Shown here in pieces: positions 2,413-62,095 of a stretch of 64,000 nt of DNA. The DNA lies in contig NC_089439.1 of assembly GCF_026210795.1 (NCBI RefSeq), forward strand, positions 2,356,001-2,420,000, read 5' to 3'. The stretch comes from Rhizophagus irregularis (taxonomy: Eukaryota > Glomeromycota > Glomeromycetes > Glomerales > Glomeraceae). The notes beneath the pieces were generated by a model. That model made no database searches and was not told the DNA's origin. It was given only the letters and a program-made list of their open reading frames with translations. Position 1 is the first letter of the stretch. Every line of letters starts with the position of its first letter. A program made the position numbers and the translations under genes.

Positions 2413-2679
2413 ATGTTATCTGAACGAAGAATGCGCGGGACGCGCAGAACGCGCAGGACACTGCGATTTATAAATAATGCATATAATATAAATCAATATC
2501 GAGTTTCACGAATTTTCCCAATAAATAATATAAGCACGATTTCCCGAATTTCTCAAATAACCATTCCACAAATTACACGTAACTCTTTTGAGAATGATTT
2601 CTTTAACGGGACAAGTTTTCATGAAACTAATAGTCTAGAATCTCTGATTTTACCCGCTGGATATGGATCATCGTTGTAA
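2413..2679 (+). CDS. Small basic protein, FFNG/LPAG family, copy 1
   Basis: This intronless frame encodes 88 aa. I do not recognise a described family, but it is one of seven related copies in the window, which argues that it is real. Residues 1-20 are strongly basic (many Arg and Thr). The middle is Ile/Asn/Ser-rich. The conserved block reads QITRNSFENDFFNGTSF, then ESLILPAG close to the C-terminus, ending in SSL. There is no signal peptide or membrane segment. The basic N-terminus could bind nucleic acid or direct nuclear import; that is inference. The start is the first ATG in an open frame and gives a length close to the other copies. Known database families were not searched. Confidence 0.6.
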   Translation: MLSERRMRGTRRTRRTLRFINNAYNINQYRVSRIFPINNISTISRISQITIPQITRNSFENDFFNGTSFHETNSLESLILPAGYGSSL

Positions 2680-5600
2680 TAATAATAAATACATTTTTCA
2701 AATAATGTATTATTTCATTTCAATTAAATAATAATCAATTTATGGCTAAATCTCAACTTTGATAGGACTCATAAGATGTTATAATAGTTAGTGTATTTTA
2801 AATTATTAAGATTTTATTCTGTAAGCATAACAATCATTATGTATTATTAATCGCGATGTAACTTTTAAGTAATTTTTGTGAGTAGTCAAGTTGATCATTT
2901 ACTAATGAATAGGCATTAGTAATAAAGTTATTTATATAACTAGATGCTATAGTATTATTTATCAATATAGAATTTAAGGTTTAATTTTGTTATTTACAAA
3001 AACAATTAAAAATTCAAAGTAATAAAAGAAAGCATGGAAGGTTGGATCCACAAGCTGTTGATCCGGCGTTACCAAATAAGTTTAAAACGGTTGTTTTTGG
3101 TTAATAGACTATATTCTAGATGTAATCGAAAAGAAGAATTTACATGTAACGTGACCACAATTTTTCGAATTTAATATGATAATAAATTGTTGCTAGTACA
3201 TGATCAATCATGAATATACCCGCGGTATGATTGGGCATACAATAGTTCGTTTGCATATTGTATAATCGAAGAGAATAAAAAAATCAATAGTTATTGCTTA
3301 ACTGGGCGATATGATAAATTTTCGTGTTAATTATTGTTCATTCATTTTTTTTTTGAAAACAATATCTTTTTAATTTAATGCATGAATATTATGAATATTA
3401 TGCATATTAATCTAAGAAGACAATACTGTAGCTGGATGTAAGGTAATCTTTATTATATCTTTATTGTACTACAGTGTACAGAATGATACTATGAGTTTAA
3501 TAGTCTCATAGAATTCCATTTTTTTTGAGGAACGTAAAACAATCATTTTGGTGAAACCATTTAATTGTTTTCGCACAATGACTAAAAAATTTTGTGATCG
3601 ATTATTATCAAAAAATTTGAAAAATATCATTAGAAGATGATTAACAACAATGCGCAAGCTTTAATTTTTGATAATCGATCGTTCAAATAATGATTTTTAA
3701 CATTTTGTATATCATTTTTGTTTGTTCGATTTTGAATTCTTTTCTTTCCATATTCAAAAAACTAACATTTTTATCTCTGCTAAACCTGCTGTCGTTATTG
3801 TTGTTTCCGAAGTAACAAAAAAACCAATCAACCCTACAAATCAATGTTCTATAATATAAACGATTACTGCTGACATTGTATATGACTTTATAACCTTTCA
3901 TACTTTGGACTATTTTAATTGGCTTGCCGCTACTATTTAAAGAAATATCTTTAACGATCTTGAAAATGAAATTTAGGTAGTACCCATTATCACTCATAAT
4001 TCACAATAATTCGTATTTTATAAAATTAATTTATTCTTTTATAATATTCGAATTTAAATATTCCAAGATTTTATATTCTATTAACTTATTATTTATGAAA
4101 TTATTAATCGCTTATTGCCTTTTTACTAATCAATACATTTCAGTAAGTTTTATTTATTATAGGTTCCTAAGATTAGTACAACCATATTACGCATAATATA
4201 TTATTGTGCATATGCATAACTTATACAGTATATTTCCGTAAGGGCAACATTTTATAATGAGTCGTTTTTTTTGCCATATTGGACTACTAATCATTGACAC
4301 TACAGTTAGTAAAATATAGTCTTTTCCCCATATTTTCTTGGTTGTTATTCTTATTCCATCCCTATCATTCAATTATGATACGTATCTGCATTTCCAATGT
4401 ATTATGATATATTGAAATAAGTAGAAAAATCTTGTTGCTACTTGCTGTAGACAGAACACCTAAGTAATAGATTATATAACTTTGTTAATAGAGTCAGAGT
4501 GGTTAGGAGTGTGCATTAGAACATAATGATAAAATGGGCAAAAAATCCTGAATTCTGTCTTAATAAAGTGAATTGAATGTAGAGTGACACTACCTCAATG
4601 ATAAGTATCCGACCTGCTTTTGCATCTGGTATATTTCAGAGAATAAACCGAGTTTCAGGATTCTACCTATATATATATATCTATCTAAGATGAAACAGGA
4701 ACATAAGCGAATAGGTATGCAATATAGTCAATCAATTAAGTCCATCTTCTCATTGTATTCAAAGTTAGGGTCATAGTAACTGTTTATCTCTTAGATCTCT
4801 TGATTAAAGGAAGGTAAAAAAAAAAAAAATAGCAAAATAAATTTAAATATGGCTGATGGGTAGGATTATGCTAAACCCTACAAAGAATACATTTTTTGGC
4901 TACTATACTTCCATGGATATTCGACTGTCTTCACTCACATGCCTTAAAATTCCGGAATCGCATACTCATTTTTTTTCGCTATTTTTTCCGTATGAGGAAC
5001 AAAAAAGGATACCACTCAAGTACTACATGCTTTCAACCTCAGCATTATATACGTATTCTCTCAGGTAAAAATACGTATGAAGAAAAAACAAAAACCAACA
5101 CGATATACAGTTGTTATTTTCATTGCAAAAATACATCACTGAGCATTATTGTTCCGTTATACACCAAAATTGCCTGTCGAGATATGTAGGTTAATTTCAA
5201 TTCCGTGAAAATACATTCCGATGCGGCCAAAAATTTGGAATGCATCATATTTGGTATTTAAAAATGATGAATGTTGCCAAAATCATTTACTATGCCACAC
5301 ACATAATCTAACCGAAATGGAATTTCCTTTGCTTTTTCGCATGATTTTTAGAAGATCCGATCATTTAAATTTCTACCACTAAAAAAAACTTGAATGGCTA
5401 TTGTCGAATTACCATCATAAAATAGATTAGTCTGATTAGATTAAATAAATCATTTGGACATTTTTAACGAACTTTAACATGAAACTTATACAAAATGAAT
5501 GTGCTCAAACCTTTTTTTAAAAAATAAAATAAAATTGAATGCAATGCTTTTTATTATTTGTTTTTTATAAAGAATATACATAAATAATAATGTTTCATAA

Positions 5601-5688
5601 TTTTTTTTTTTAAAAAATAAAAATACAAGTGATAATGATTGTTATAATGATAATAAATGAATCTATTTATATAAGAAAAGTCAATAAT
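2680..5688. other. Gene-free stretch between small gene and nitrite reductase
   Basis: No supported gene. Open frames of 60-104 codons occur on both strands (for example 3683-3997 minus and 4896-5189 plus) but overlap each other, have no recognisable domains and look like chance frames. The 3' end of the nitrite reductase gene abuts the right boundary; its untranslated tail probably lies within about 5500-5688, which is A/T-rich. Confidence 0.45.
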
Positions 5689-8600
5689 TTACCAATCCAA
5701 TTTTTTATCACCACCACATCCAACCGCCGCTGTATTTCCTAAAATTTCTATTTTGTTACTTTTTTTGTTATGACTCTTTGTCGAGAGTTTGTTAGAAACT
5801 ACCCATTTACTTGTTCCAAGAATTCTATCAAGTTCTTGTTCAGGGGGAAGATACAAAAATACGTAATCATCCTCAATTTTAATTTCAAAAGTCATTAGCT
5901 TAAGATCCGCATCTCCCGAAACACATTCACCAGTTTCCAACGCGAAATTTTTCTTATGCATTGGACAACTTACTCTCATTATACCATCATCTTCATCACC
6001 GAGTATTCCTTGAGATAATACAAAGGCTCTCTTGTGCGGGCACATATTTTGTGTTGCGTACCATTTTGTACGTTCATTGGTATTAAATATGGCGATTTGT
6101 GTATCTCCATATTTAATAACCTGACCAGCATCATTAGGAAATGCGCTAGCTGGAGCAATTTTCACCCATTTTTTCGATTCCAAGTTTGCCGACTTTTTGA
6201 TTTCTGAAATTTCTTTTTCGGTAACTGAACATTCCTTTGGCCAATCTGCTGGACGAGTTTGGCCACGTTCACTTACGGTTTCAATTTCATCTACGTTCTC
6301 ATCTGTATTTACAAATTGAGTGAAGTCCGCACGCCTTTTTGGGTCTTTTACGACTTTGGCCCACTTTAAAAATAAATAAAATAAATAATTAGATCGTCTC
6401 GACTCTTAATAAATTCATGATGATGTAATAAAGTTATAATTCCTTACCTCGCATTCATAAGTATATATTAAACGAGCCATGTCTTCTTCCAATTCTGCGC
6501 ATATACCAAGATAATCATCAACAATAACTCTTTTAAGATACTAAAATGATACGTAATTATGTTAAAAAAAAATGTATTCATATATTATACAATAATAAAT
6601 AAAATTATCATAAGTTACTTACTTCAATTCCTCCTTCCATTTTTTCTAACCATCTAGCTGTACGGGCCAATCTATCAGCGGTATGAATATAATACATCAA
6701 AAATCTATCAATATATTTTACGGCGGTATCAGGTGAAACGTCCTTTGCTAGTAAAACAGCATGTTTTGGTTTAGATCCACCATTACCACAGACATATAGG
6801 TTATAACCATTGTCAGTAGCAATAAGACCAAAATCTTTTCCTTGAGCCTAGAAAGAAGTCAAATAGCCAAATTAAAAAAAAAGAGAGAAAGAAAGAAAAT
6901 GATTTAACGTCTAAATCACTTAAATACTTACTTCCGCGCATTCCCTAATACATCCAGAAACGGCACCTTTAATCTTATGAGGAGCTCTAATTCCTTTATA
7001 TCTATTTTCTATTTCAATAGCGAATTGTACACTATTTTGCTGACCTGATCATTCGAACAAAAATAAATAAAAATTTAAAATTTGCATTTACGGAAGGGAA
7101 AACAGAAAAACTTCTAACAATTATACTTACCATAACGACACCATTCTGAACCGACACTAAAATATTTCCAAATAAAATAAAAGAAAGTTACGTTAATAAT
7201 AATGAAATGTTAGTGTAAATATTATAAAATATATCATTTAAAAATGCTTACCAAGATTTTACAGTTCTCAAAGCTTTTCCGTAAGCATGACCAGATTCAA
7301 AACCTGCATTAACGAGCTCTTCCCATATTGCAGGTAGATCTTGCTTTTTAGCACCGAAAAGATCAATTCTCTGACCGCCAGTAATTTTAGTGTATAAATC
7401 ATATTTTTTGCCAACTTCTCCGAGAACAACAAGTTTTTCAGGCGTAATTTCACCTCCAGCAATTCTAGGTACCACAGAATATAGTCCTCCACGTTGAAGA
7501 TTAGCAAGATAACGATCATTCGTGTCTTGTAAACCTGCATGATCTAGGATATGATCATTCCATAAACTAGCTAAAATTGACGCGATAGCTGGTTTACAAA
7601 TTTCACATCCGTTAGCTCCTTTTTTACCAACTTGTTCAATAATATCTTTGAAAGTTTTCAATTTCTTTATTTTGGCGACTTGGAATAATTCGGCGCGTGT
7701 TAAACTGAAATGAGGACAAAGCGCATTAGTCACTACGTGACCTAGTGCTTTCATTTCAGCTTGGAAAATTTCCGCAACAGCTGGAATACATCCACCGCAT
7801 CCTGTACCAGCCTTTGTGCATGATTTAACTTGACCAATAGAACGGCATTCATCAACTTTAACTGAATCTCGAATTTGTCCTTTTGATACATTATTACATG
7901 AACTAGTTATTTAAATAAATAAAGTATGATAAAAATTAGTTTAGATATTATAATAAATAATTTTTATAATTTAAAGTTAAAACCTACCAAATTTGAGCTT
8001 CATCAGGAAGATCATCCGCACCTGGAGCTTGACCTGATTTAACACCAAGTATAAGCTCACCAGGAGGAGCAATTAAAGGTTTTTTTGATTTCATCAAAGC
8101 GTGAAGTTTGGCATAATCATCAGTGTCACCGACCAAAATACCACCAAGCAAGTATTTGCCATCAATTGAGAATATAAGTTTTTTATACACTGAACTAAAA
8201 GGATCAGTATACACCAAATGCATAATAGTATCATCTTCTTTAGCAAAACAATCACCAAAACTAGCAACATGAACTCCCAAAAGTTTAAGCTTACTCGATA
8301 AGTCACCTCCCAAAAATCGCTTACCCCCACCCTTAATCAAGTTATTTACGACAACATCAGCCATATCATAACCAGGCGCAACAAGCCCATAAACCGCACC
8401 ACCATACAAAGCAACTTCTCCGATAGCATAAACATGTGGATTATTAGTTCGTAGGAGATCATCAACAAAGACACCACCACGTTGATGTGTTGAAATTCCT
8501 GATGCTTTAGCAAGATCATCACGTGGACGGATACCAGCAGCCATAATAACCATATCCATTTGAATAGTCTCGTTGTCAAATCGAATACCCGTAACTTTAC

Positions 8601-9358
8601 CATCTTCATCAGCGGTAATCTCCTTTGGTGGATTATCGACAATACATTTAATTCCCAACTTTTTGATTTCATTTATGAGCATTTTCCCTCCTGCGGTATC
8701 TAATTGTCTTGACATCAATACTTTATTTCTTTCAATAATTGTAACTTCCAACCCTAAATCCATTAGAGCTTTAGCGGCCTCGAGACCAAGTAAACCACCT
8801 CCAATTACTGCACCACGTTTTGATTTACTACTATATTTAATGATTTCTTCTAAATCATCGATTGTACGATATACGAATACGCCTAATTTATCGGAACCGG
8901 GGACTGGAGGTACAAACGCATAAGAACCTGTAGCTAAGATGCATGAATCATAATTCACGGATATTCCATTTGCCGAAGTTACATGTTTGGCGGTCGTATC
9001 GATATGAGTTGCTTTTTCATTCATGTGAACGATCACATTATTATCTGAATACCAACTTGCAGGCTGCATTAACATTCGGTCTTTTTCTCGATGAGAAAAA
9101 TATTGAGTCAAACCAACTCGATTATATGCAACTTAAAAAAATAGAAAAAATAGTATAAAATTTAATTATAAATCATAAAATGAAACTCGATTTTTTCTTT
9201 TAAAAAAAAAAATACAAATATTTACCATAGGGTTCTTCACAAAATACCTCAACCCTAAATTGTTTATCTTTGTCATTTTTTAATAATTTTTCAATAAAGT
9301 ATAATCCAACCATACCAAGACCACAAACTACTACGGTCCGTTTTTCAACAGGGGCCAT
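5689..9358 (-). CDS. NAD(P)H nitrite reductase, siroheme type, eight exons
   Basis: The enzyme reduces nitrite to ammonium with six electrons from NAD(P)H via FAD, iron-sulfur centres and siroheme, in cytosolic nitrate assimilation. Exons (minus strand order): 9358-9226, 9131-7988, 7902-7252, 7156-7131, 7044-6932, 6847-6623, 6540-6448, 6363-5689. All seven introns are GT-AG and 82-95 nt. The joined frame is 3060 nt and codes for 1019 aa. FAD-binding GLGMVG is at about 13-18 and NAD(P)-binding GGGLLG at about 155-160. BFD-like [2Fe-2S] cysteines are C426, C428, C461 and C464. The siroheme/[4Fe-4S] ligands are CVGSEWC (643-649) and CIREC (683-687). A Rieske domain has CPH (903-905) and CPMH (928-931). 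Length is slightly below the usual roughly 1100 aa of fungal enzymes. The start ATG at 9358 directly precedes the FAD fold. It appears intact; no nitrate reductase or transporter gene is visible beside it. Confidence 0.96.
7131..7156 (-). other. 26-nt microexon of nitrite reductase
   Basis: Exon 4 of the nitrite reductase gene is only 26 nt. It completes the first siroheme/iron-sulfur cysteine motif: the first Cys codon is split across the preceding intron (TG|T) and the exon supplies the second Cys of CVGSEWC. It is bounded by AG at 7157-7158 and GTAAGT at 7130-7125. Both phases join correctly to the neighbouring exons, which supports the call. Confidence 0.9.
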
Positions 9359-9544
9359 TATGAAATCAAATCAAATAATAAGGTGAAAAAGAAAGAAAGG
9401 AATAATAAAACAGAAGATAAAAAAAAATTTTTTTAAAAAATAAAAAAAAATAAATAAAAAAATAAATAAAATAAAATAAAAGATAACGAGAAAAAATGGA
9501 TATCTATAAATATATAAATATATATTATGGATTGAGGAAATACT

Positions 9545-9656
9545 GATAAGGAAATTATAGCTCGAGCATGATAATCTTATCACAAGATCGTTTAGATCGT
9601 TTGCAGAATGATAATTGCGGCAAAGAACGGAAATATGTTTGCTTATCTTTGATAAG
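9545..9656. promoter_or_regulatory. GATAAG cluster upstream of nitrite reductase
   Basis: Four GATAAG sequences lie 190-300 bases upstream of the nitrite reductase ATG: 9545-9550 and 9651-9656 on the plus strand, and 9576-9581 and 9642-9647 on the minus strand. Two more minus-strand sites are at 9864-9869 and 10020-10025. In ascomycetes, AreA/Nit2-type GATA factors activate nitrate-assimilation genes through such sites during nitrogen limitation. The same role here is inferred from spacing and gene identity. In AT-rich DNA some GATAAG matches are expected by chance, but four in 112 bases next to this gene is suggestive. Confidence 0.5.
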
Positions 9657-14998: not shown

Positions 14999-15002
14999 GG
15001 TA

Positions 15003-15633: not shown

Positions 15634-15940
15634 ATCAAAAATAATTAAAACAAAGAACTTCATATGTTCAAAGATTTAATTTAAGTAACATGAGAACTAG
15701 GAGGAAACCTCAAAAACTTTGTCCAGATTGTAAGGAAACGAACGACTGCATTAAGCTCTTATCTAATAAAGTTTATATGTGGAAAAAAAGAAGCTAAACG
15801 AATTTCTGTATTCAACGCAAAGTTCAATTTAAATAATGTACCTTGTGAATTGGAATATGATTTATCAAATTTCACGTTAGAAATTCTACAAAATTAGTAA
15901 CTTTTGCGAGAACAAGTAAATATAATGATAAGGGATAGTT
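15634..15940 (+). pseudogene. Broken copy of the 130-aa CPDC-protein gene
   Basis: This is the block A counterpart of the intact gene at 25845-26237. The start codon is ATA instead of ATG and the first codons carry an indel. The RTRRKPQKLCPDCKETNDC coding segment is retained, but about 60 bases are missing after the LLSNKV codons. That shifts the frame into a stop (TAA) soon after. The downstream VPCELEYDLS-encoding part is recognisable. It is clearly non-functional as written. Confidence 0.8.
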
Positions 15941-16454: not shown

Positions 16455-17400
16455 CTTAAAGAATACAGTAGAAAATCGTAAAAAACTTAAAAACAAGTTA
16501 AGAGATAAATTCGTCGTATAATTATTATTTATAAAGGTTACTGAATATAGATAGCGGTTGTTTAAGTTGTAGATGAATATTAGCTGAGTTTGAAAAATTG
16601 CGTTGTACCGTATAAAGTTCGCGTTTTACAAGAGTAAATTTTGCAATTTTACTAAAATGCTACAAGTTTGTATCGAAGGGATTATTAAATTAGGTTATCA
16701 TTAAACAAAAAAAAAAAAAATCTTAAAAATCTCTAATCTAGGTTCATTGTATGACTCTCATATATAATTTGTATAAAAATACAATTTGATTAAACGAATA
16801 TTTTAAAAAGTCTTATATAATACCATATAATAATTTATAAACCATAATAAAATATTTGAATAAAAATTTACAGACCACCATCTTAGTATAAAAATTATGT
16901 AAATTCTATTATAATGTTGTGTTTATGATGAAAAAAAAACAAATTTTCATAAAAATATTTTTCGAGATAGAAGCGCAGTTTCAAATTAAACTAAGTATGA
17001 AAAACATATTTTAACGAAACAATGAAGAGGTTGTTGAACATCCAGCAGGTAAAATTAAAGATTCGAAACTATTGTTATTATAAAAACTTGTTCCATTAAA
17101 GAAATCATTTTCAATGGAATTATTCGTAATTTGAGGTGTGTTTATTAGAGAAATTCGATCTATAGTACTAGAATTATTTATCAGTCGAATTTCTGCAACG
17201 CGATTTCGGTTTATATTGATATTATTTGTATTATTTGTTACATTAATAAATCGTGACGTTCCGCGTTGTCCATAATTTCTTGATGACATTGGAAGATGTT
17301 TTTTTGTGATGCTTGTACAAAAATCGATGAAAATTTTGCTGTATAAAATTAAAAATCTTTACCAAAGGAATTTTCGATGCTTTTATAAGAAAAAATCCTC
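16455..17400. repeat. Inverted arm 1 carrying small-family copy 2
   Basis: This arm is the reverse complement of about 19505-20440, with roughly 2.1 kb between the arms. Matching landmarks: ACAGTAGAAAATCGTAAAAA near 16465 against TTTTTTACGATTTTCTACTG near 20403; the small gene itself; and TTTCCTTTGGTAAAG-type sequence upstream of each gene. Divergence is moderate, with several indels, so the duplication is not recent. Confidence 0.75.
17011..17289 (-). CDS. Small basic protein, FFNG/LPAG family, copy 2
   Basis: An intronless frame of 92 aa. It opens MSSRNYGQRGTSRF, followed by an Asn/Ile-rich stretch, then NNSSTIDRIS, NTPQITNNSIENDFFNG and ESLILPAG, ending SSLFR. It is nearly identical to copy 3 on the inverted arm at 19607-19885, and the start ATG is conserved between them. 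The function is unknown. It has no signal peptide, membrane span or known catalytic motif. Preservation of an open frame in both arms despite indels in flanking DNA suggests selection on the protein, which is inference. Confidence 0.7.
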   Translation of the reverse strand: MSSRNYGQRGTSRFINVTNNTNNININRNRVAEIRLINNSSTIDRISLINTPQITNNSIENDFFNGTSFYNNNSFESLILPAGCSTTSSLFR

Positions 17401-17985: not shown

Positions 17986-17987
17986 AA

Positions 17988-18199: not shown

Positions 18200-19500
18200 T
18201 ATAATATTCTCTTATTTACTTTGCAACAAGTAATGCTTTGAAAATATAACGTGTCAATTTTTAACGAATGATATTTCGCCGTATCTAAATTAGCAAGATC
18301 ATCTCAATCATATCAACAGAAAAAAACCGAATTAAATTTAGTAAAAAGGCGATAGTTATTCGTACCCATTTTTGTTATTTGTATCCAACATTATTTAATG
18401 ACACGTGATATCGCTTGGCCAAATTTTCCTTAATTCTAGCCATGTGAGTACGAATAACAAAATTGGGTTATAAATAGCAATGGCCAATAAAAAAGAATTT
18501 TAAGAACTATGAATATCATACAACGAAAAAAAAGGAAATATTCCATTTAAACAAAGAAAATTAATTCGAGATCCGGAATTAAGCCCTATGATATATTTGT
18601 GCATAACAAATCAACAAATCAATTTTAATTATCCCAAAATCAGTATATCATTTTCTGTAAGGCGGCGTTATCTACAACAACAGTAAAATAACTAATCGGA
18701 ATAATCAATCAATATTATCATTAAATTGAAATTGGAAAGATTTATACTTTAACCAACCATAAGTCCATAACTGAAATCTTTTAAACTGTTGTGTTCGATC
18801 CCAGGATTACTACTTATAGACTGCAATAAAATTCCAAAATATCAACTATATTTTTTATTTATTTATGGTAAGTAGGTTTTTAATAATTTTGATCTGCAAC
18901 AATTTATGCATCGTCTTATTGTTGTTATATACAAACTACTAAAAAAATAAAAGGGATTTGCCAATAAATGATTAAAAAGGAAATTTTGTATAATACATTA
19001 GGAGTTTACTTGTGGATTTCAAGTAACCCGCTAAAACCCGACGACTTTGTTCCTTGCGAATTGGAATATGATTTATCAAATTTCACGTTAGAAAATTCTA
19101 CAAAATCAGTAATAACAATAATATGATAATGATAAGTAAAGATTAAAGTGTATTGATATTGAGACTACTACTACAAGATCCGTGATGCAATATCGGGAGC
19201 ACCTATCCCGTTCCGAAGTGGCACAATCTGACCAAATCAAATGGCTGAGATCGAAAACAGCAAAGTATTGCCTAAAGACCTATGCAATAAGTGCCGATAT
19301 GGAACTCATTTTTTCCTGAAAATTCCGAATTCCAAATATATTTTTACGCGTGTTGCCAGAATTATTTGATAATTCAATTATTTATATAATTAATAAATAA
19401 ATAATATTCAAATATGTTATTTTTAAAATGAACCTAGTAAAGGTTACTGTATATTTTAAGGTTCCTTGAAAGACAAATTAGTACCTTTTGAGGTTTAGTT
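18200..19500. repeat. Duplicated and rearranged block B
   Basis: The left part (18224-18680) matches 23707-24105. 18840-19042 matches the start of block C (24570-24790). 19043-19110 matches the 3' end of the 130-aa gene. 19180-19495 matches C in inverted orientation (reverse complement of about 25430-25660), with about 90 extra bases inside. So block B is a deleted and partly inverted copy. A 41-codon frame, 19241-19366, starting ATGGCTGAGATCG and containing CNKCRYG, crosses the rearrangement; I do not call it a gene. Confidence 0.65.
19043..19115 (+). pseudogene. 3' fragment of the 130-aa gene in block B
   Basis: About 70 bases encode CELEYDLSNFTLE, matching CELEYDLSKFTLE of the intact gene at 25845-26237. 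The rest of the gene is missing because of a deletion inside block B. It cannot be functional. Confidence 0.75.
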
Positions 19501-19606
19501 TATAGTGAGGATTTTTCTTATAAAAGCTTGAAAATTTCCTTTGGTAAAGATTTTAAGTTTATACAGCAAAATTTTCATCGATTTTTGTACAAGCATCACA
19601 AAAAAA

Positions 19607-19885
19607 ATGTCATCAAGAAATTATGGACAACATGGGACGTCACAATTTATTAATGTAGCAAATAATACAAATAATGTCAATATAAACCGAAACCGCGTTG
19701 CGCAAATTCGACCGATAAATAATTCTAGTACTATAGATCGAATCGCTCGAATAAACACACCTCAAATTACGAATAATTCCATTGAAAATGATTTCTTTAA
19801 TGGAACAAATTTTTATGATAACAATAGTTTTGAATCTTTAATTTTACCTGCTGGATGTTCAGCAACCTCTTCATTGTTTCGTTAA
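19607..19885 (+). CDS. Small basic protein, FFNG/LPAG family, copy 3
   Basis: 92 aa from the ATG at 19607. The frame is open upstream to an ATG at 19541, but the start at 19607 matches copy 2 (MSSRNYGQ), so I prefer it. It has NNSSTIDRIA, NTPQITNNSIENDFFNG and ESLILPAG, and ends SSLFR. Differences from copy 2 are mostly single substitutions in the N-terminal Asn-rich stretch. The function is unknown. The frame is intact, as in its inverted partner. Confidence 0.7.
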   Translation: MSSRNYGQHGTSQFINVANNTNNVNINRNRVAQIRPINNSSTIDRIARINTPQITNNSIENDFFNGTNFYDNNSFESLILPAGCSATSSLFR

Positions 19886-38532: not shown

Positions 38533-38769
38533 TTAGGGAAATAACGTAGACCTTGAAGATCCGGCGGGTAAGAATAGGGATTCGAAATTGTAATCATTGT
38601 TGAATCTCGTCCCGTTAAAGAAGTTATCTTCGAAAGGATTGTTCGTAATTTGCGGTGTAGTTATTCGAGTGATTCGATCAATTGAGCTTGAATTATTTAT
38701 CGGACGAATCAATCTTAACATCCTTCGTCTAGTATAACCTCTTTGTCTATAGTTTATGGTTGACGGCAT
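38533..38769 (-). CDS. Small basic protein, FFNG/LPAG family, copy 4
   Basis: An intronless frame of 78 aa, the shortest intact copy. It opens MPSTINYRQRGYTRRRM, with a clear basic patch, then NNSSSIDRITRI, TTPQITNNPFEDNFFNG and ESLFLPAG, and ends STLFP. It lacks the Asn-rich spacer seen in copies 2 and 3. The start ATG is the only one giving the family's N-terminal motif. Function unknown. Confidence 0.68.
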   Translation of the reverse strand: MPSTINYRQRGYTRRRMLRLIRPINNSSSIDRITRITTPQITNNPFEDNFFNGTRFNNDYNFESLFLPAGSSRSTLFP

Positions 38770-41700
38770 TGGTTGGTTTTCTTCCTTTCTTTTTTATAAA
38801 ATTTCTTCTGTGGTAACGATCGATTACCATGCGGATTTGATGTTAATTTTTAATAAGGTATTTACAAGACAATTTTCGAAGAGCTTTTATAAAAAAAATT
38901 AACATTTAAAGTTTGCACTGCATTTCAAACTAAAAGGGTATGACTTATTCCGCATAAAATTATAAATACTTTGTAAACTTACTTCAATCGATCGTATGAT
39001 TAATATGTAACGATTGTAACGCGTAATTTTATCATAGATCTTACAACCAATATCTTCATTACACGCATGTTGTTTTAATAAATATTGCATAAATTAAATT
39101 AATTAATCTCCTGTCTACATTACTATTGTTGCAATTTGTTTGGATATTTAAGTAAACACATTGTATTCGTCCCAAATAAAGATATAGTTTTATTCAATGT
39201 AATATCCGAATCATCTCCGGTCCCAAAAATAGTAATAATTGAATGAATTGGTCTAATTAAACACGTAATTATCACACCAAAGTTGAACTTATAAACAGAT
39301 GAAACTTTGATAAAAATCTTTCTATAAAACTATAATTAGATTGATTAAACAATAGCTACACGTTCGAAAATAAGGATCTCTAAAAAAAATGTAACGTAAC
39401 ATAGAAACTAAACAAGGAGACTTACTCGGAAAATTTCTAGAACTAGCGCAAAGATGATGTTATATTTATTTGTTTTATTTTTTTATCAAGTTTTTACTTT
39501 TAGCCATTCAATAGTTATCATAGCAAGAATACTAATTCTATACTATTGTTTCTATTTTACAATCGATTGGTTCGTCATTGTTAAATAATAACGACTATCT
39601 GTTGAAATATAGTACGATGATCCATTGGCAATTTCAATTTTTAATTTAGAAACAAAATAAAAAAAAAAAGATAATAAATTGCGTCATTTTTTTAAAGGTA
39701 CGCGTTACCAATTCATTTATTATATTTGATAAGGTCAACAATTACAAACTTTCATTTAAGTTACTTAATAGGATATTTGCGTGACTACGTTTATATTAAT
39801 TAATACATGAACTTATTTATATTATGTACTTTTATACAATTTATTATGGTAATAACTCCGGTCAGTTATAGCCGGTACGATTATTATTTTAATCACCCCT
39901 TTTTATTTAATTTACTTAATTTACTTCAAAAGAAAAACAAAAGATAACCAATCGGAAAATGACCGAATAATGAGACGGTCGTTCTTTTGAATTATAGAAG
40001 AGTATGTGGATATGAGATTAAATATTCTCTCGGAGTAAGAGAAATATGCAAATTTAAATAACATTTTTCGTTAGATCATCATTTCTCTGTTTCCTAGATT
40101 TGTATGTTGATCAGCAAATTGATCAGCAAATTGGCTAATTCGACTAAAATTACTAAAATTCGACTGATTTGCTAAAAATAAATAGGACCGAATGTGACGC
40201 CACACCCGCAGCGCCAAGTTCATTGATATAAGGCAAATTCAGTATAATAATTGTGTTACAAAAAATTAAAAAATTATTGATAAACTCATTTTTCTTTCCA
40301 AAAAAAAAAAAAAATGCATTTTTTTTTGTGGTCGTGTACGATATTAGCAATTAATAGTCTTAACGACTTTGATTTCTTTTATTCTAAGATAACCTTTTAC
40401 GAAAAAGTAGTACAATGATTTACATAATTATTCTATCAAAATTTTCCTTTTTTTTTAAATTCTAAAATACTTTACCTCGAAGGGATAATACAGTAGGGAT
40501 AAAGGAGAGTTTCATTAACCCTATTTCTAAGTATTTTTATTATAGATTATTTTCGGTATATTTTTTTATCAATGAAAAGCTTTGTAGGAAATAAAATTAT
40601 CAAGCTTATTTTACGCGATTATAACAGATGTGGTGTCGTGTTTTATTCGTTGATATGACAAGTTGGCATGTGGGAAAATGTGGTATTAAACTGTTATAAA
40701 CTAGTAAAGTGAGTATCTTAATAATATACCGTAATACATTCAATTGTTTGATAAAATGATGCATCATATTTAAACATATGATAATGAAACGTGTATTTTT
40801 TGAAATATAGGATGTTTCAGTCTCTCAATATCTTGGAAGTTATGGATGTTTGTTTAGTGAATATTAATCTAACTCACATATACATAATAACTTGGTCGGT
40901 AACCGAACATCGGATTCGATATGCTACTAAATACGAGTATAACGTCATTTTTGCTATTGAAAATTTGTTAGAAAAAAAGTATCAATGTCCGGAAAATCTT
41001 CAGTTAAATTAAGTTTTACGCTGACAACGAATAGTATATAGACCAGAACAACATAAATCTCAAGCAAAGAATTTTAATTCAAAATTCGAAAGTCAGTCGC
41101 TAGTCAACAATATTAGTTAAAAAGGACCTAGTTAATCTATTTAATATTTAATATCATAGAGAATGAGGATTGGAAAAAGAATAAAATATGTTATTTATCA
41201 TCCAATTGACATATTTATTCCTTCAAAAAACATTTTTTTATTTTTTTGAAGTAACATTACACATTGAGCTTTCTGACCGAACTGTTTTGAAACTTAATTC
41301 AATGTTTCCTATCAAAGCCATCCGTAATTCTTATTTACTTACAAACAACCCGATTACCAACACTATCATATAGTTTGTAGACGAAATACGAGTACAAACA
41401 AGATATATTGCGTAAAATTACGTAATTACCAAAATCATGACTTGCTTTAAAATTGACTGACAATTTAATTTATTAAAAAAAATTGTGAGTATTAGGAAGA
41501 AAAATGTTAATACGATATCAAATGTTAAGAAACTGAAATTGAAGAAAGTAATTTACACTCGTAAGTCCATTTGTGTTTAGTCAAGTGTAAACTCGTCACG
41601 AACTCTCCATGGATCAGGTTACATTTTATTAAATCAGGAAAGGGAGCTACGAGTGGAGGTCAGCCTTAATGCGGAATGAAAAAACAATATACAAGGATAA

Positions 41701-46180: not shown

Positions 46181-46803
46181 CGAAAGCTCCATAAGGTAAA
46201 TTTACAAAGTAAATTCGAACAAATTAGAAAAAAGTTAAATGTCCGGAGTACTTTCCTCAGACAATTTTACTTAATTTGTTTATATTTTTGTAGAATTAAG
46301 GTTTATTGTAATGTAATTATTAATATATCTCGTGTTTATGGCAGCACTTATGTGCAGCTATTAAACTTTTATTGAATACACTCAATGTAATTATAACGCT
46401 AAACTAAGTTCAGCGTTTTCTTTGTGAGTCACATACTATCATTCAACAAGATACAGATTATCATCACTTAATCATTAGTATAGTAGTTATTTACAGGTTT
46501 ATTTCGTTTCGTTCGAATTTTTTTTTATAGCTTATAATCTAATAAAATAAACTGAATCAGTAAAGAATATCAAAGAAATCACGTTAAGATTTTATTTAGG
46601 CTCCGAGATAACAATTTTTTTTTTATAAATACTCGAAAATTTTCTCTGTCGAAAATTCTTAATATATTACTACTACAGAAAAAAGATCCTGTAAAAACGG
46701 CAATACTCAGTATAATATTCTTTATTAATATTTCGATATTTATACAAAAAATTTCGGTTTTCTATTGATATTTATACAAAAAAGAACGTAAAATCATAAT
46801 TCG

Positions 46804-47052
46804 ATGTCACCGAGAAATTTCAGACAAAGAATCAATAAACGAAGAACGCGCAGGTCGTCACAATTTGCTAACCAAGACCGTGTTTTACGAATTAATAATG
46901 CCACAACCATCAATCGAATCGTTCGAATAACTATACCGCAAATTACAGAAGACCTTATAGTAAATAATTTCTTCAATGGATCAAATTTTCATGATAGTAA
47001 CGATAACTTTGAATCATTAATTCTACCTGCAGGATCTTCGCAGGATCAATAA
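46804..47052 (+). CDS. Small basic protein, FFNG/LPAG family, copy 5
   Basis: An intronless frame of 82 aa. It opens MSPRNFRQRINKRRTRRSSQ with a dense Arg/Lys patch, then NNATTINRIVRI, IPQITEDLIVNNFFNG and ESLILPAG, and ends SSQDQ rather than the usual LFR/LFP. The ENDFF element is altered to VNNFF. Function unknown. The opposite-strand frame 46794-46976 is a shadow. Confidence 0.68.
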   Translation: MSPRNFRQRINKRRTRRSSQFANQDRVLRINNATTINRIVRITIPQITEDLIVNNFFNGSNFHDSNDNFESLILPAGSSQDQ

Positions 47053-52752: not shown

Positions 52753-52770
52753 AATAAAAGTTCGGTAAGT
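52753..52770. repeat. Left 18-bp target site duplication
   Basis: AATAAAAGTTCGGTAAGT occurs here and again at 55288-55305, flanking the insertion with the 607-aa ORF. The exact match and position argue for a target duplication made on insertion. Confidence 0.75.
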
Positions 52771-55287
52771 AAAAAAAAAACTCTTTCCCCTTTCCATTTT
52801 TTCACATAGAAATCCGCAGTTAAATACTGTTTTTTTTTTTACACTTTTTTACGTTTGTTAACGCTCGAGAAGAAAGAGGACCACTGGGTGGCCTCTTATG
52901 GAAAGGTTCTTCTCCTTATCACCCGACTTCTGAAAGAAGTTTTTATAATAAAATATTTTTTTTTCGTCTTCCACACCCATACAACATATTAAAAATATGG
53001 TTTCTTTTTTCCCTAAACATATTTCCTTGGGAAAATTTTCTTTCGATATCTCATTCCACAAATTTCACGTGACTAGACCCAAACGGGCTGGATGTAACAA
53101 GATTTATGAAATCAGGAGATCAAAAAGTTTCTTTTTTGAGTTAGTCGATCCTTCAACAAACACCAATGATATTCATCTTAAAATACACACAAATGATTAT
53201 CACATGAAATCGACCCCTATTAGCTACTCTTCCACCTGTAGCTTTCCTAATCTGAAATACCAGATTAGTAAGATGTTACAACATTTTTTTTCCCATCAAA
53301 AAGTCATCCCCCGCTCTATTCAAAAGAAATATTTTAATCTTATTCGTTGCAAATTACTTGATAGATATTTTCTTATCAAATCACGTGCTGACAAAGTCAC
53401 ACAAAGAAATTCCCGCACAAAAACTTTCTTTAATTTTTCCTATAAACGTTACCGTTTTTACTTTGGTATTTTCACACCATGTAACTTCTCCACTACTTAC
53501 AATTTTGGAACTGAGCACACACAGTTGTGTAGTGTCCCCTCTCCTTTCATTATGTCTCATAATAGACGAGCCTGCGTTTCTCATCACAAAAATTTAGACA
53601 TTTTTCATAATGTCAAGAAACACACCCCGTTATTGACCCATAATGATACTATTAACCACAAAGAATATCACGCATTGGGCACTTATTTTAACTGGAAACA
53701 TGGCACGAAAAAACACGTTTACTCAAATCGTTTAGGCATTTCGTACGATGTCTCGTACTCAGCGAATAATCACAAACATTTTAACATGCAGAAGAAACAC
53801 CTCATGTACCGTAAACGGTTGGATAATTTCCGTTCACACCATTCTGACAATAGTAAAAGGAGTATCAAACAAAAATCCCGCTTTCAGCGGGCATGTAGAT
53901 CAGTTTTCTACAATCGTGGCAATAATAGAAAGTCACAGAGACGTGTGGATAGTCTTGAAGAAAAACTTCAGCGTGCTAAACAACACCGTTTTCTATTTTT
54001 ACCTTCACAACATATTTACAAACCTATACAACATGTGAATTACCATTATCCGTTTCGCCAACCCGCTCCACGTTATCCAAGGGATGATTCAATTAGTGCG
54101 ACAAATACTAGCTCGCCTGCCACCAACTTACAACCCGTTCCCATCGATGATGAGAACATTTGGCACGACAAGTTGGGTATTTGGATTCCTAACAGTCTCC
54201 TTCCTTACGTAACCGATGACCCTGTTTATACTTCTAACAGACAGGCCAAAATCAAAGGTCAACATTTTACGCCAGGCTGTGCGTATTGGTTTGATGGTAT
54301 TAAAAAACGTAAAGAAGCTCATGAATTAGCTTTACGTCAACAAAAAGATCAAGAAGCATATGATATTGCCCACCTCACTCTTGAAAAAGAACTTTCTGCC
54401 AGAGCTCAACTCTGGGGTACCTCTGTCAACCGTATAGAATATCGTGAAGATATGACAAAAGATCTCACCAATTTCCAAGATCATTATCACAAGAAAATCA
54501 CGCCTCTGATTGAGCGTCGTGCTGTTCTAGAGAACAGGCTTAAACAAGGAAAAAACATTTATAAAACTAACAAACAATTACTCCAGTTAGAACAGGAGCT
54601 TGGTCGCTTTAATATCGACTATTTCTCAGTCATGAACGATGATGAATCCCATTACCGCTATAAAGGACACACATCCGATGAAGCGAAACAACTTGAAATC
54701 AGACCTCATAAACGTCCTCCTGTCTCGTCTACAAATGCAGATAGGCAGATCACTGACATCAAAAAACTGAGACCTGATACTACGTCTCCAGAAGACTTTA
54801 AAGTCTTCGCTTCAGTCTAACAATTTTTAGAACACCTATCAGCTTTTTTTTTATTTTTAGTGTCACGCTGATAGTTATAGTTTACGTTTTCACCTAGGCA
54901 CTTTTTTTTTCTCTTTTTGTCATTTTTTTTTTGACTAGTATTTTAATACATCTTTTTTTTTGGGTAACCCCCACGTACACTTTTTTAACAACGTACAACA
55001 ATAAGAATAGTGTGAACCATTCCACCTATTACAGTATTAACAGGTGGCGGTCTTTTCGACCGAAAGAAAAATATGGGTCTATGTTTAGATTGCCTTTACT
55101 TTGGTTATTAGGGATGTGATGTCGTGTTAGGGACTCCCCGGATTCGTCAAAAGTACCAGAGTGGCGCTGTCCTCGGGCGGTTTGATTATAACTTAGTATC
55201 AGATAGCGTTCGACATTTGTATTATCTTTTGTTCTTGTCTATCTTTCTATAATCTTGTTCACGTGGTTTTAAAAATAAAAATAAAAA
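52771..55287 (+). mobile_element. Retroposon-like insertion carrying one long ORF
   Basis: A 2517-bp segment lies between 18-bp direct repeats (52753-52770 and 55288-55305). The downstream end, read in the ORF direction, finishes in an A-rich tail (AAAAATAAAAATAAAAAAAT). Direct repeats of 15-20 bp plus an A-rich 3' end are the signature of target-primed reverse transcription, as used by LINEs and elements they mobilise. The only long frame is 52997-54820; no reverse transcriptase or endonuclease is present. The 3' untranslated part (about 55030-55200) is GC-richer and may fold, which could serve RT recognition. Alternatives: a LINE that lost its second ORF, or a retroposed host gene. Confidence 0.65.
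52997..54820 (+). CDS. 607-aa basic protein of the retroposon-like insertion
   Basis: The longest uninterrupted frame in the window (607 codons). Codon use is less AT-biased than the flanks. I do not recognise the family. The protein is rich in His, Lys, Arg and Tyr. Residues about 285-330 are strongly basic (NRKSQRRVDSLEEKLQR). About 354-410 is Pro/Ser/Thr-rich and then reads WHDKLGIWIPNSLLPYV. About 437-536 is charged and probably coiled-coil (KKRKEAHELALRQQKDQ to LLQLEQELGRFN). A basic protein with a coiled coil suits a nucleic-acid-binding ORF1-type protein, which is inference. The start is the first ATG after an in-frame stop at 52949; another start a little downstream is possible. No signal peptide or membrane span. 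Confidence 0.7.
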   Translation: MVSFFPKHISLGKFSFDISFHKFHVTRPKRAGCNKIYEIRRSKSFFFELVDPSTNTNDIHLKIHTNDYHMKSTPISYSSTCSFPNLKYQISKMLQHFFSHQKVIPRSIQKKYFNLIRCKLLDRYFLIKSRADKVTQRNSRTKTFFNFSYKRYRFYFGIFTPCNFSTTYNFGTEHTQLCSVPSPFIMSHNRRACVSHHKNLDIFHNVKKHTPLLTHNDTINHKEYHALGTYFNWKHGTKKHVYSNRLGISYDVSYSANNHKHFNMQKKHLMYRKRLDNFRSHHSDNSKRSIKQKSRFQRACRSVFYNRGNNRKSQRRVDSLEEKLQRAKQHRFLFLPSQHIYKPIQHVNYHYPFRQPAPRYPRDDSISATNTSSPATNLQPVPIDDENIWHDKLGIWIPNSLLPYVTDDPVYTSNRQAKIKGQHFTPGCAYWFDGIKKRKEAHELALRQQKDQEAYDIAHLTLEKELSARAQLWGTSVNRIEYREDMTKDLTNFQDHYHKKITPLIERRAVLENRLKQGKNIYKTNKQLLQLEQELGRFNIDYFSVMNDDESHYRYKGHTSDEAKQLEIRPHKRPPVSSTNADRQITDIKKLRPDTTSPEDFKVFASV

Positions 55288-55305
55288 AATAAAAGTTCGG
55301 TAAGT
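55288..55305. repeat. Right 18-bp target site duplication
   Basis: The second copy of AATAAAAGTTCGGTAAGT, directly after the A-rich tail of the insertion. Confidence 0.75.
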
Positions 55306-56997
55306 CGAGAGTTCATTACATCGTGATCAGACTGTACAGTACTTTGCAAAGAAGGATTATTCACTTGAAAAACATGATGGCTTTCTTTAATATGATTTTT
55401 TTTTTTAGAATTAAAATCTTTCTAAATGTGGAAGATGACTTCTCCGATCAATAATCATTATAATGCTAGAGAAAACTACCAAAAATTTTACTAATAATGG
55501 TTGTTTTTATTATCACACGGAAGATATCCTGTGAATGCATGGCTCGAATGAAAAAAGTTTAATATTTATTGTACAACTTTTTCTCAGAAAATCTTACCAC
55601 GCTACTCCTGGGTGTCTAACTGTCACCGTTTACGTGAATGCCATCTGTCACTCTCCCTCGGAAATCACCTGTGTTAACATAAACATATAGACGTTGCATG
55701 GCAAATGACCTAGTCATTTGTCATTTAAGTCATTTAAATTTAATGCTAAAATTAATTCAGGCTAAATTTATGATGCTGGCCAGAATTACAAATTTATATT
55801 ATCACGTGATATAATTTATCCTCGAAACAAAATAATTTTGGCCAGAATCTAGGTAATGTTGAAATTGACCCAGGGTGGTACAGTATCTAAAAATAACGGT
55901 GACCACACAAAAATAAATTTTAAGTTCGAAACACGGAATGTAATACAAAAGATTCTTGGAAGTAAAAACAATGTAAATCGGGAATCATCATTTATATATT
56001 CTTTATAATTTCGTTATTACTAAATTTACTAAATCAAAATTTTCTCATCAAAATACATAAATACTGAGTGAGATAAGAAACCTTATATGAAAAACTATAC
56101 ATTACGATCTCCTGGGTTAAATATTATTATAATAACAATTTTTTTTTTTTTCAACTAGCCTTCCTTTAATTGCCCTATAAAAGTAAAAACTCCGTAAAAA
56201 TGAGCCTTTCACGGATCCATTCACGGAAATTCCATCCGGGATATAAGGTTATTAATTCCGGAAATATGAGCCTTTTACGGAAAAAAAGATGGAATATAAA
56301 AAACGGATCGACTTTTTTTACAGTTGACTTGCTTGCTAGCGTAATCATTAATATCATATGATACGAATGTTTGGCAAATGAAATCTTAAAATAATTGCCC
56401 GTGAAATTCGGACATTTCCTGTTTCACAGTTTTGTGGGAATATAGGAATATATAAAAACAATCAATCAAAGTAATTAAAATGAAATGTAATTTTTTTTTA
56501 TTATTATAATTTTCTTCTAGCGCGACTTTAAATTGAACTTTGCGATATGGGAGGTTTGTTTTGCATATTATTGCATTTATTAAAATTTTTAATAAAAAAA
56601 TGAATATTTAGCGTAAGTGGCTGATATAGTCGAGTTTATGATTTGAATGAGTAATTATTAGTTATTAGTTTGAAAGTGTTGTGTATAATTTATTTAATAA
56701 TATATTGGTTTAAACGCATTAACGGCTGAAAAGAAATCCATTATTATCAGAAGGGATCTTATTTAAACCAAATTAGTTTATTAAAAGAAAAAAATCAAAA
56801 AATTCATGTGTAAATGAATAAAAAAAAAATCGAAAATTTTAATTGATTTTTATTGATGAAATAAAAACTGAGAAAATCACGTACATTAAAATAATCCTAT
56901 AAAAGCTCTATTAAATAACCTTTCCTCTAAAGTAATCCGCAATATTACAAAAATTTTTAATACAAAAATAAAAAAAAACTTCATAAATAAAGGCAAA
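55306..56997. other. Gene-free stretch with short repeats
   Basis: No supported gene. A GGCCAGAATTAC motif and a TATCACGTGATA palindrome lie near 55776-55810, echoing the sequence left of the insertion (52600-52700). Two direct copies of a roughly 24-base unit containing ATGAGCCTTT, each ending in ACGGA, are at 56193-56216 and 56258-56281. Confidence 0.45.
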
Positions 56998-57258
56998 ATG
57001 CTGTCAAGAAATTTATATGAACAAAGAAGAATACACAAAGCACGACTAAGAAGAATACGCAAAGAACAACTTTTAAGAAATATTATAAACAAAACCTACA
57101 CTAAAAAGACCAGTACTTTCGACCAAATTGTTCGATCGATTCCACCTCAAGTTAATACGGAAACTCCTTTGGAAAACAACTTTTATAATGGCGCAGTATT
57201 TCAATATCATACCGACGTTCTCGAACCTGCAGGATGGGACCTTTCTCTGTTTCCTTAA
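56998..57258 (+). CDS. Small basic protein, FFNG/LPAG family, copy 6 (diverged)
   Basis: An intronless frame of 86 aa and the most diverged intact copy. It opens MLSRNLYEQRRIHKARLRRI, very basic. The core reads TFDQIVRSIPPQVNTETPLE, then NNFYNGAVF and VLEPAGW, ending LSLFP. The FFNG becomes FYNG and LILPAG becomes VLEPAG, but spacing and the C-terminal LFP are kept. Opposite-strand frames are shadows. Function unknown. Confidence 0.65.
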   Translation: MLSRNLYEQRRIHKARLRRIRKEQLLRNIINKTYTKKTSTFDQIVRSIPPQVNTETPLENNFYNGAVFQYHTDVLEPAGWDLSLFP

Positions 57259-60200: not shown

Positions 60201-60731
60201 GAATAATTAAACAAAATAAAATCAAAATTCTCATAAAAACAAACCAAACCAATATCGCTAAGCAATTGTTGCTTCTGAAGTAATAGAAAAACCGCAAAAT
60301 CAATGAACTTTTACTTATAATTTCTTATGGAATGGCACGCACAAAGTGCCTGAAATTCTCTATATAATTTTGAAAGCCGCACATAAATAATTTATATATA
60401 TCTGATATACAGTATGTAAGAATTTAGCAAAAAAGTTTATGTTAAAAACAATTGCCTATAAAATTTAGGGTCAACGTACACATAACAAAAAGTTTAGGAG
60501 CATATATAATCATCGCACAACTTTTTTTTTATCTGCTTTTTATATTGTAAACCCGAGGAAAACTATATAATTTCCAATTAAAACTGATTAAATTTATTAA
60601 AATATTAGAAATTTGTATGCTCAACATAACATTGATGTAAATTATAACGGTTATTACTCACATTACATTGTATAGTTAGTTGTAAGATTTGCAGATGGCA
60701 GTTAAAAGGCAATTGCAATTTTGATATACCT
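57259..60731. other. 3.5 kb gene-free stretch
   Basis: No supported gene on either strand. Very AT-rich, with AT runs near 58040 and 60390. Nothing else found. Confidence 0.4.
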
Positions 60732-60740
60732 TTTATAGCC

Positions 60741-61037
60741 GGTTACGGTACATTTCCATTTCGCCGAAAGGACGTTTCGCCGAAAAATAGGGCCAACATT
60801 ATGCAGAATTATAAATAACTCAGGATGACAAACAAGTAAACGAAAAGGCACCATCAAGGGCTCCAAGATGGACCCTTGCCGGATATAATGGAAGCTTGAA
60901 AAAATACGTACTAGAAGATTACCGTAAAAGCTGGTACCCGGAAATACAAATACGTAAAAATCGGCAAAGTCCAGAAGACTCAGGTGAAGAAGAAAAGGAC
61001 GACCAGAGATTATTTTTCGGCGAAATGTCCCGATACC
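60741..61037. mobile_element. Mutator-like miniature element, copy 3, with a coding-like insert
   Basis: Flanked by a perfect 9-bp direct repeat TTTATAGCC (60732-60740 and 61038-61046). The left terminus GGTTACGGTACATTTCCATT, followed by TCGCCGAA, pairs with the right terminus (reverse complement GGTATCGGGACATTTCGCCG). The arms are short (about 45 and 30 bp). The centre (about 60790-61010) is GC-richer than the surroundings and holds an open frame, unlike the AT-rich cores of copies 1 and 2. Confidence 0.82.
60812..61010 (+). pseudogene. Captured coding fragment inside the Mutator-like element
   Basis: An open frame runs through the element's centre, including DDKQVNEKAPSRAPRWTLAG, then LEDYRKSWYPEIQIRKN and an acidic tail (SPEDSGEEEKDDQRL). 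Amino acid and base composition look like normal coding sequence rather than AT-rich noise. It has no start ATG of its own upstream and reads out into the terminal repeat. I interpret it as a host gene piece carried by the element (Pack-MULE style). The donor gene is unknown. Confidence 0.45.
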
Positions 61038-61045
61038 TTTATAGC

Positions 61046-61167
61046 CCTATCAAAAAAAAGAATGTCCGGAAATTGTCGTCAAAAATGTCCGGAAAATTGA
61101 CATTTTCCGGACATTTTCCGGATACTTTCGACGACAATTTCCGGACATTCTTTTTTTTATAGGATAG
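61046..61167. repeat. Palindromic element next to Mutator-like copy 3
   Basis: Left arm 61046-61097 and right arm 61102-61167 pair over most of their length. The shared blocks are AAAAAAAAGAATGTCCGGAA, then ATTGTCGTC and AATGTCCGGAAAAT, around a TGAC loop. The right arm has a short extra segment. It overlaps the right target duplication of the Mutator-like element by one base, so it was either inserted immediately beside it or already present at the target. No coding capacity. Confidence 0.65.
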
Positions 61168-61913
61168 ATTTTTTTCCGGTTACTCTGTTTATATATGACG
61201 TTTTGTCACAAAAAACTTGAATATATTATCTAAATCAGCTTTGGCTGATAAAATTTTCCTTTAAATCTTTGTTACGTATTTTTGTTTTAGTTCTATTGCG
61301 GAGTATTGTCACCGAAAGATTTCTTTCAGTAAATCAAAATCAACTTAAATAATTTAAATAATGCATTGTTTTATTGTAAAAAATTTTTATCGAAAGAAAA
61401 ATTAGTTTAATGTTTCATATATTAAAAAATTTATGAAGTTTGAGAAGTTTGATTAACATGATAGTGAAACACTGTTATCTATTTTTAATATTCAAAAAAG
61501 CAGGTAATTATGTAAAGTCTAACCTTCCGACGCAACACCCTCTCTTCTACCAAACTTCATTCATAAAAGAGATGAAAACTTTTGCCAAATATAGAAAAGT
61601 TGTCTCGATAATAAATATTATAAAAGGTCCAAAACAAGTTCTCGATGTACTTCGTTATTTATTTCCCACGCCAAGAATTGAACGGACTTAATTTTTACAG
61701 AGTTCTATTATTAGATTAAACCTTTTGGGATCAAGTGATCAAGCCTCTACCATATCATTACGGAATTAAAATATACAAAGTATGATTAGTAATTAATGAT
61801 TAAAACTCATAAAAGCCTCCAAAATTCTCTAATAGATATCATTCCTTGATAATTTCTTTAATTCTTTTACAAAAAAAGCTTAAATCCGCATTTTCCAAAT
61901 TTTAAAAATAAAT
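61168..61913. other. Spacer with one weak open frame
   Basis: A frame at 61440-61691 contains NLPTQHPLFYQTSFIKEM and a basic C-terminus. It matches nothing I recognise, so I leave it unassigned. Confidence 0.3.
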
Positions 61914-62095
61914 ATGGCAAATCAAAACGAGTTTCACGACAGATTTATTAATAAATTATTCAAATACTATATACTACAAGTCACCAGCAATAATTTCGGG
62001 AATAATTTTCTTACCGGAATAACTTTCATGATAACGATAGTCTCGAATTTTTATTTTTACCTGTTGGATTCTCGACCTCACTTTTCCTTAAATAG
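61914..62095 (+). pseudogene. Small FFNG/LPAG family, copy 7, frameshifted
   Basis: It starts MANQNEFHDRFINK; the family core is recognisable as QVTSNNFGNNFLTGITF. A missing T in the run before CATGAT at about 62026 shifts the frame. In the shifted frame the rest of the family C-terminus appears: HDNDSLEFLFLPVGFS, then SLFLK and a stop at 62093-62095. As written, the frame instead runs on to 62108 with an unrelated tail. A sequencing error is an alternative to a true frameshift. The core substitutions (FFNG to FLTG, PAG to PVG) favour real decay. Confidence 0.7.

Follow-up and report, generated by a model that had tools for sequence, protein, structure and literature searches.

What are the dispersed small open reading frames (ORFs) in this stretch of the Rhizophagus irregularis genome, which share a conserved FFNG...LILPxG tail, and where did they come from? 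The stretch, called the window below, is contig NC_089439.1 of assembly GCF_026210795.1 from 2,356,001 to 2,420,000 (64,000 nt; C11:2356001-2420000 in a genome of 146.7 Mb and 32 contigs). An earlier note, made from the letters of the window, had proposed a real small-protein family under selection and a possible link to the fungal MATA-HMG genes. On balance, our analysis favors the explanation that the ORFs are real, tail-only genes of an HMG-derived family whose products may act as microprotein-like modulators. This is based on purifying selection on the short copies, on a shared upstream element and on longer relatives elsewhere in the genome that carry the same tail behind a decayed HMG box.

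Short ORFs in the window

GC content across the window is 24-35% (4-kb steps). A blind profile, built on 13 short copies outside the window to avoid circularity, was run against 1981 six-frame segments of the window. The six intact ORFs ranked at the top (E 1.2e-41 to 7.6e-8), followed by two frames of a broken copy at 61914 (E 4.1e-5 and 0.1); by this profile the second of these is no better than chance, because the following segment scored E 0.11. Chance matching is excluded for the six ORFs and for the 61914 tail. The copies are as follows (intact ORFs from ATG to stop; E values from the blind profile).

2413..2679, + strand: intact short-form ORF, 88 aa (E 3.2e-31)
17011..17289, - strand: intact short-form ORF, 92 aa, the inverted duplicate of 19607 (E 2.9e-40)
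19607..19885, + strand: intact short-form ORF, 92 aa (E 1.2e-41)
38533..38769, - strand: intact short-form ORF, 78 aa (E 6.8e-27)
46804..47052, + strand: intact short-form ORF, 82 aa (E 1.9e-24)
56998..57258, + strand: intact short-form ORF, 86 aa, the most divergent (E 7.6e-8)
61914..62095, + strand: broken copy, tail split over two frames (E 4.1e-5, second piece)

The ORF check and the blind profile thus bear out the count of seven related copies, six of them intact, given in the earlier note. Its wording of the motifs was overstated, being true for most copies and not for all. The start M-S/L-S/P-R-N holds for most, with 2413 beginning MLSERR and 38533 beginning MPSTIN; ENDFFNGTxF, said to be in all, is exact in three of the six intact copies, and ESLILPAG, also said to be in all, in four (38533 has ESLFLPAG and 56998 only LEPAG). 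The ending SLFP or SLFR, ascribed to most, is exact in three of six, with TLFP in a fourth. The 17011 and 19607 copies form an inverted duplicate pair, 94% alike across 303 nt.

Purifying selection on the short copies

Pairwise ratios of nonsynonymous to synonymous divergence (dN/dS, or omega) among the five youngest copies ranged from 0.17 to 0.51 (ten pairs). Codon models, which covered 5 and 14 of the 19 short coding sequences and had no transition-bias parameter, gave an omega of 0.30 for the five youngest copies (twice the log-likelihood difference [2dlnL] from omega = 1, 27.8) and of 0.29-0.31 for the 14 copies (2dlnL, 137.9), estimates in which gene conversion between copies other than 17011 and 19607 may play a part. 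Omega was 0.19-0.25 for the tail alone and 0.37-0.49 for the N-terminal part. The long relatives gave values of 0.27-0.31 (sets of 6 and 8). Gaps in the coding alignments were always multiples of three (0-3 gap columns in 6 of the 10 pairs, 45-48 in the four that include locus L005), and the flanks of the same ten pairs had 6-34 gap columns over the 110 nt before the coding part and 44-156 over the 300 nt after it. The flanks of the 17011/19607 pair carry 9-11% substitutions, similar to their synonymous sites (0.10), which favors selection and argues against recent conversion of the coding part. Copies that have diverged to a dS of 0.4-0.6 and beyond are still open.

Collectively, these results show purifying selection on the short copies, most strongly in the tail, and the ORFs are probably working genes rather than debris. 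Selection on a real small-protein family, as the earlier note had it, is supported by an omega of about 0.30 with omega = 1 rejected, by coding indels in multiples of three and by a common promoter element; its dN/dS check among intact copies likewise came out well below 1.

A shared TATA-type promoter element

At 79-194 nt before their ATG, the short copies have in common an element resembling TTTTTCTTATAAAAGCTCTGAAAA. A motif fitted to short-form upstream regions reached a log-likelihood ratio of 195.5, compared with 96-112 in 12 dinucleotide shuffles. The fit covered 17 of 22 upstream regions, leaving out the near copies L001, L003, L004, and L005 as well as L021; because the motif was derived from the very 17 regions that it scored, it is the shuffles that serve as the test. 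Among 23 long-form upstream regions, the fitted motif scored high in one (L020, 20.9 bits; 99% null, 11.6), and it was not found in the upstream regions of 8 HMG genes (best, 3.1) and of 17 members of family B, an unrelated family also present in the window (best, 4.9). Free fits gave other motifs for the long forms (168.7) and for family B (131.9, without shuffles of its own). In a dispersed-repeat test, a 26-nt consensus with up to three mismatches returned one match, upstream of the 17011 copy; as the consensus was too strict for the other copies, the result carries little weight for other genes. The elements in the window are as follows.

2248..2271, + strand: TATA-type element of the 2413 copy (L008), motif fit, 165 nt before the ATG
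17358..17389, - strand: TATA-type element of the 17011 copy (L002), motif fit
19517..19548, + strand: TATA-type element of the 19607 copy (L001), sequence comparison
38875..38898, - strand: TATA-type element of the 38533 copy (L010), motif fit, 129 nt before the ATG
46617..46640, + strand: TATA-type element of the 46804 copy (L018), motif fit, 187 nt before the ATG
56891..56914, + strand: weaker TATA-type element of the 56998 copy, motif fit, 107 nt before the ATG
61801..61824, + strand: TATA-type element retained by the broken 61914 copy, motif fit, 113 nt before the ATG

The common element is a hint that the short copies may be transcribed.

Two forms of one family in the genome

The 19607 protein found 67 matches in the genome at E <= 10, 33 of them at E <= 1e-6. 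A long member used as query found 51, and 11 of its loci at E <= 1e-6 were additional to the 19607 list at that level, so that the two queries combined give a family of at least 44 loci; these counts are lower bounds, with the divergent 56998 and broken 61914 copies missing from both lists. Sixteen of the 33 strong matches lie at C11:2.01-2.54 Mb, including one broken fragment (2151111). Two forms can be told apart. Short, tail-only forms (73-115 aa) are concentrated in that C11 region, with three outside it (C12:5065471, C11:231047, and C11:264674). Long forms (134-183 aa in a single open frame) are found at C11:0.40-0.54 Mb, at C12:4.57-5.06 Mb and on C21, C18, C7, and C2. Other genome matches to 19607 carry stops.

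Both forms share the conserved tail RI-x-x-x-x-PQIT ... ENDFFNGTxF ... ESLILPxG, and their profiles aligned over the tail only (hhalign; Prob 99.5, E 4.2e-23). The long-form profile matched the 19607 ORF at E 1.3e-23 over profile positions 90-156, starting inside helix 3. The N-terminal part has a net charge of at least +3 in 15 of 19 short forms, and 18 of 19 tails are negatively charged; inspection shows N-termini that are polar and mostly basic rather than hydrophobic. No viral or bacterial relatives were confirmed in viral and genome contig collections scanned with one short peptide pattern per scan.

A decayed HMG box in the long forms

Profile-profile comparison of 19 long forms with eight HMG proteins of the same genome gave an E value of 7.2e-7 over 91 colinear columns. 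The score was 51.5 with the whole HMG side (maximum of 100 column shuffles, 18.8) and 49.6 when only the first 130 columns of the HMG side were used (maximum of 100 column shuffles, 24.4). As controls, reversed alignments of the long forms and HMG proteins gave no match, and family B gave E 0.64. The ten least-derived long forms reached Prob 96.7 and E 3.8e-10; two of the 19, L037 and L041, were placed in neither subset. Six of the eight HMG proteins overlap PF00505 matches over the cut-off, and L048 and L049 were admitted by similarity only; in the genome search for HMG boxes, 150 of 275 candidates were scored. At the residue level, the helix-2 tryptophan (W88) is present in 19 of 19 long forms, aligned with the HMG tryptophan, and is missing from the six short forms of the window. 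All eight HMG proteins begin the box with N-x-F (N50 and F52, both invariant); the long forms have x-x-G in its place (LTG in 9 of 19, by inspection) with a nearly invariant G57.

The genome search with the long form also reached HMG genes. Its weak end consists of 11 rows (E 0.0106 to 1.24), and for four of the loci there a separate search found an HMG box above the curated cut-off (C18:2795955, C18:2799884, C18:2793366, and C1:6791008). A degenerate ORF at C18:2785991 bridges both sides: its hits have E 5.7e-11 among HMG loci and E 0.04-0.6 among long forms, and in profile comparison it reached Prob 97.6 against HMG and 92.3 against the long forms; it had no Pfam match over the cut-off. It shares its C18 stretch with several HMG genes and a long form, C18:2788234, which lies within a few kb of the HMG genes at C18:2.78-2.81 Mb.

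By these comparisons, the upstream domain of the long forms is a decayed HMG box. We read these matches as a decay series, from HMG box to degenerate box, to box with FFNG tail, to more decayed box with tail and finally to tail only. The long forms lie outside the Pfam definition of the HMG families and are homologous to them by profile; HMG-box membership is not claimed for the short forms. The MATA-HMG link raised in the earlier note is real by way of the decayed box of the long forms and indirect for the short proteins, which do not match HMG profiles.

As a separate observation, the HMG gene cluster at C18:2784000-2812500 (L031-L033) includes degenerate ORFs of HMG type for which Pfam has no match over the cut-off (L031:1923-2444 and a 116-aa ORF in L032). 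The degenerate ORFs among the C18 HMG genes suggest decay in place.

Loss of the box or gain of the tail

Several results weigh against the favored explanation. The short forms alone had no match to HMG profiles. In the genome search with the long member, an alignment extended 57 nt upstream of the 19607 ATG, which prompted an in-frame search for HMG remnants ahead of 19 short ORFs; this search was negative and such remnants were rejected, as shuffled upstream DNA equalled the two best copies in 6 and 7 of 100 cases and did as well as the remaining copies in 11 to 99 of 100. The N-domain profile reached only 2.5-8.4 bits on the coding part of five recent copies, whose N-terminal part rejects omega = 1 only marginally (2dlnL, 4.1). 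On the long side, the most derived forms (7 of 19) taken by themselves reached no more than Prob 8.5 with HMG, and a subset of two from the eight HMG proteins (L033) did not match the long profile by itself. Pfam HMG families had no match in the six short proteins (E up to 1) or the 19 long proteins (E up to 10); PF00505 does recognize an HMG protein encoded in this genome (33.6 bits; cut-off, 25.4). Across Pfam as a whole, the short, long, and bridging proteins had chance-level matches only (best E 0.0058, not HMG). A sequence search of the PDB gave two matches (E 0.47 and 3.8), neither an HMG chain, AlphaFold on the six window proteins was uninformative (pLDDT, 49.5; pTM, 0.12), and the tail tree did not separate one origin of the short form from several.

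In the main alternative, the tail began as an independent small protein older than the long forms, which would have come about when HMG genes were joined to it; the short type would then be ancestral, with a structural or binding role of its own that has nothing to do with transcription factors. Such a history would agree with the lack of a significant HMG remnant in the short forms, with their own promoter element and with a tail tree that gives no supported placement of short inside long forms. It is harder to reconcile with the scatter of the long forms over C2, C7, C11, C12, C18, and C21, one of them adjoining the C18 HMG genes, with the concentration of 16 of the 33 strong matches, of the short type, in one C11 region, and with the long profile aligning short ORFs from inside helix 3 (position 90), though weakly. 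We consider this history unlikely. Because the search for upstream remnants was negative and the N-domain scores were low, loss of the box rather than fusion is a direction that we infer; it is the likelier of the two but unproven. Taken together, the genealogy and the selection are conclusions in which we place considerable confidence.

How the short proteins might act

Under the favored explanation, the short forms would have derived from the long forms by losing the HMG part, retaining at most the end of helix 3. Judging from their anatomy, the products would be small, mostly basic proteins with a probably disordered N-terminus, possibly nuclear, in which the conserved acidic tail may serve as a binding motif. 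They could bind and titrate, or locally supply, a partner that is also bound by the long HMG-derived proteins; since the long proteins carry the same tail, the simplest model has both kinds competing for one partner. We propose this microprotein mode tentatively, as somewhat doubtful in itself. A fuller version, in which dedicated, coordinately expressed tail-only microproteins from a decayed HMG branch regulate an HMG-type network through competition for the tail partner, possibly in self-recognition or mating-type responses, is speculative and, taken as a whole, improbable.

The short proteins could instead be cytoplasmic or symbiosis-related, for example unconventionally exported effectors in which the tail was reused for something new. 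Effector-like families are typically clustered, fast-duplicating, lineage-restricted small genes, a description that would suit the short copies; their N-termini, polar, mostly basic and non-hydrophobic by inspection, and the conservation of the tail with the long HMG-derived forms make this role quite improbable. Least credible by far is that the copies are mobile-element remnants or recently dead genes that look conserved through youth, as the broken 61914 copy and the genome matches with stops might suggest, given the rejection of omega = 1, the open copies at a dS of 0.4-0.6 and more, and the lack of visible terminal repeats around the five youngest copies (by eye only, without a systematic search). 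Five recent copies remain similar to about 105-145 nt upstream and for several hundred nt downstream, beyond which the resemblance fades.

If tail-only genes of HMG descent are the right explanation, an HMG-derived branch invisible to HMG profiles would make the family larger than profile counts suggest. With the DNA-binding domain decaying and the tail selected, the working part of such a branch could be short, probably a protein-binding tail. The family would then illustrate how a transcription-factor expansion can give rise to new small genes, and the tail offers a concrete bait for interaction tests.

Family B and other features of the window

Family B (130 aa; core, NVPCELEYDLSKFTLENLQKL) has a member at 25845-26237 on the + strand and decayed pieces near 15645-15894 and 19049-19111. 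At E <= 10 the genome has 134 matches to it, and C11:1.95-2.38 Mb holds 17 of the 20 best; its omega is 0.18-0.19 (13 copies; omega = 1 rejected), and Pfam gave no match over the cut-off. At C11:2113000-2118900, mostly broken copies form a dense array, four of them at a regular 383-nt spacing. Family B resembles the tail family in occupying the same C11 region, in purifying selection and in near-identical first 7-8 codons in some copies, but it has no profile similarity to the tail family or to HMG, and the promoter element of the tail family was not found in 17 of its upstream regions. Over these codons, young short copies (window starts 17289 and 19607) and some family B members (L057, L058, and L063) share 88-100% DNA identity, which begins at about the ATG with little similarity upstream; either recombination or convergence could have produced it.

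Elsewhere in the window, separate ORFs at 5689-9075 on the - strand hold pieces of a nitrite reductase-like gene, with matches to Rieske, nitrite/sulfite reductase ferredoxin-like, and pyridine nucleotide-disulphide oxidoreductase domains, and a 607-aa ORF at 52997-54820 on the + strand has no Pfam match over the cut-off.

Comparison with known systems

Earlier work describes large HMG families in these fungi (PMC7490403, PMC3834313, and PMC4771724) and discusses them as possible players in cryptic mating (PMC4771724 and PMC7490403). A homeodomain MAT locus is said to be on chromosome 11 (PMC11414155); a link to it is unsupported, as the 8 and 11 matches of two homeodomain searches all lie off C11, with the caveat that contig and chromosome numbers may differ. 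A search of the open literature, whose results were not read through, found no description of the FFNG tail or of tail-only members.

Compared with MATA-HMG and HMG-box proteins (PF00505), the long forms are colinear over 91-98 columns, including the segment before the box, retain the helix-2 tryptophan throughout and have one member adjoining the C18 HMG genes. They differ in the missing Pfam HMG match, in x-x-G for N-x-F and in the added FFNG...LILPxG tail, and the short forms differ in having no box.

MicroProteins, or small interfering peptides, are small relatives of larger regulators that do not have the DNA-binding part. The present case, known from sequence alone, differs in that the segment retained is a tail and not a known dimerization domain. 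As in microProteins, the short forms match part of a larger family and have no DNA-binding-type domain, with the long forms as the presumed regulators, and these short paralogs keep one segment of a larger DNA-binding-type family, under selection and with a promoter element of their own.

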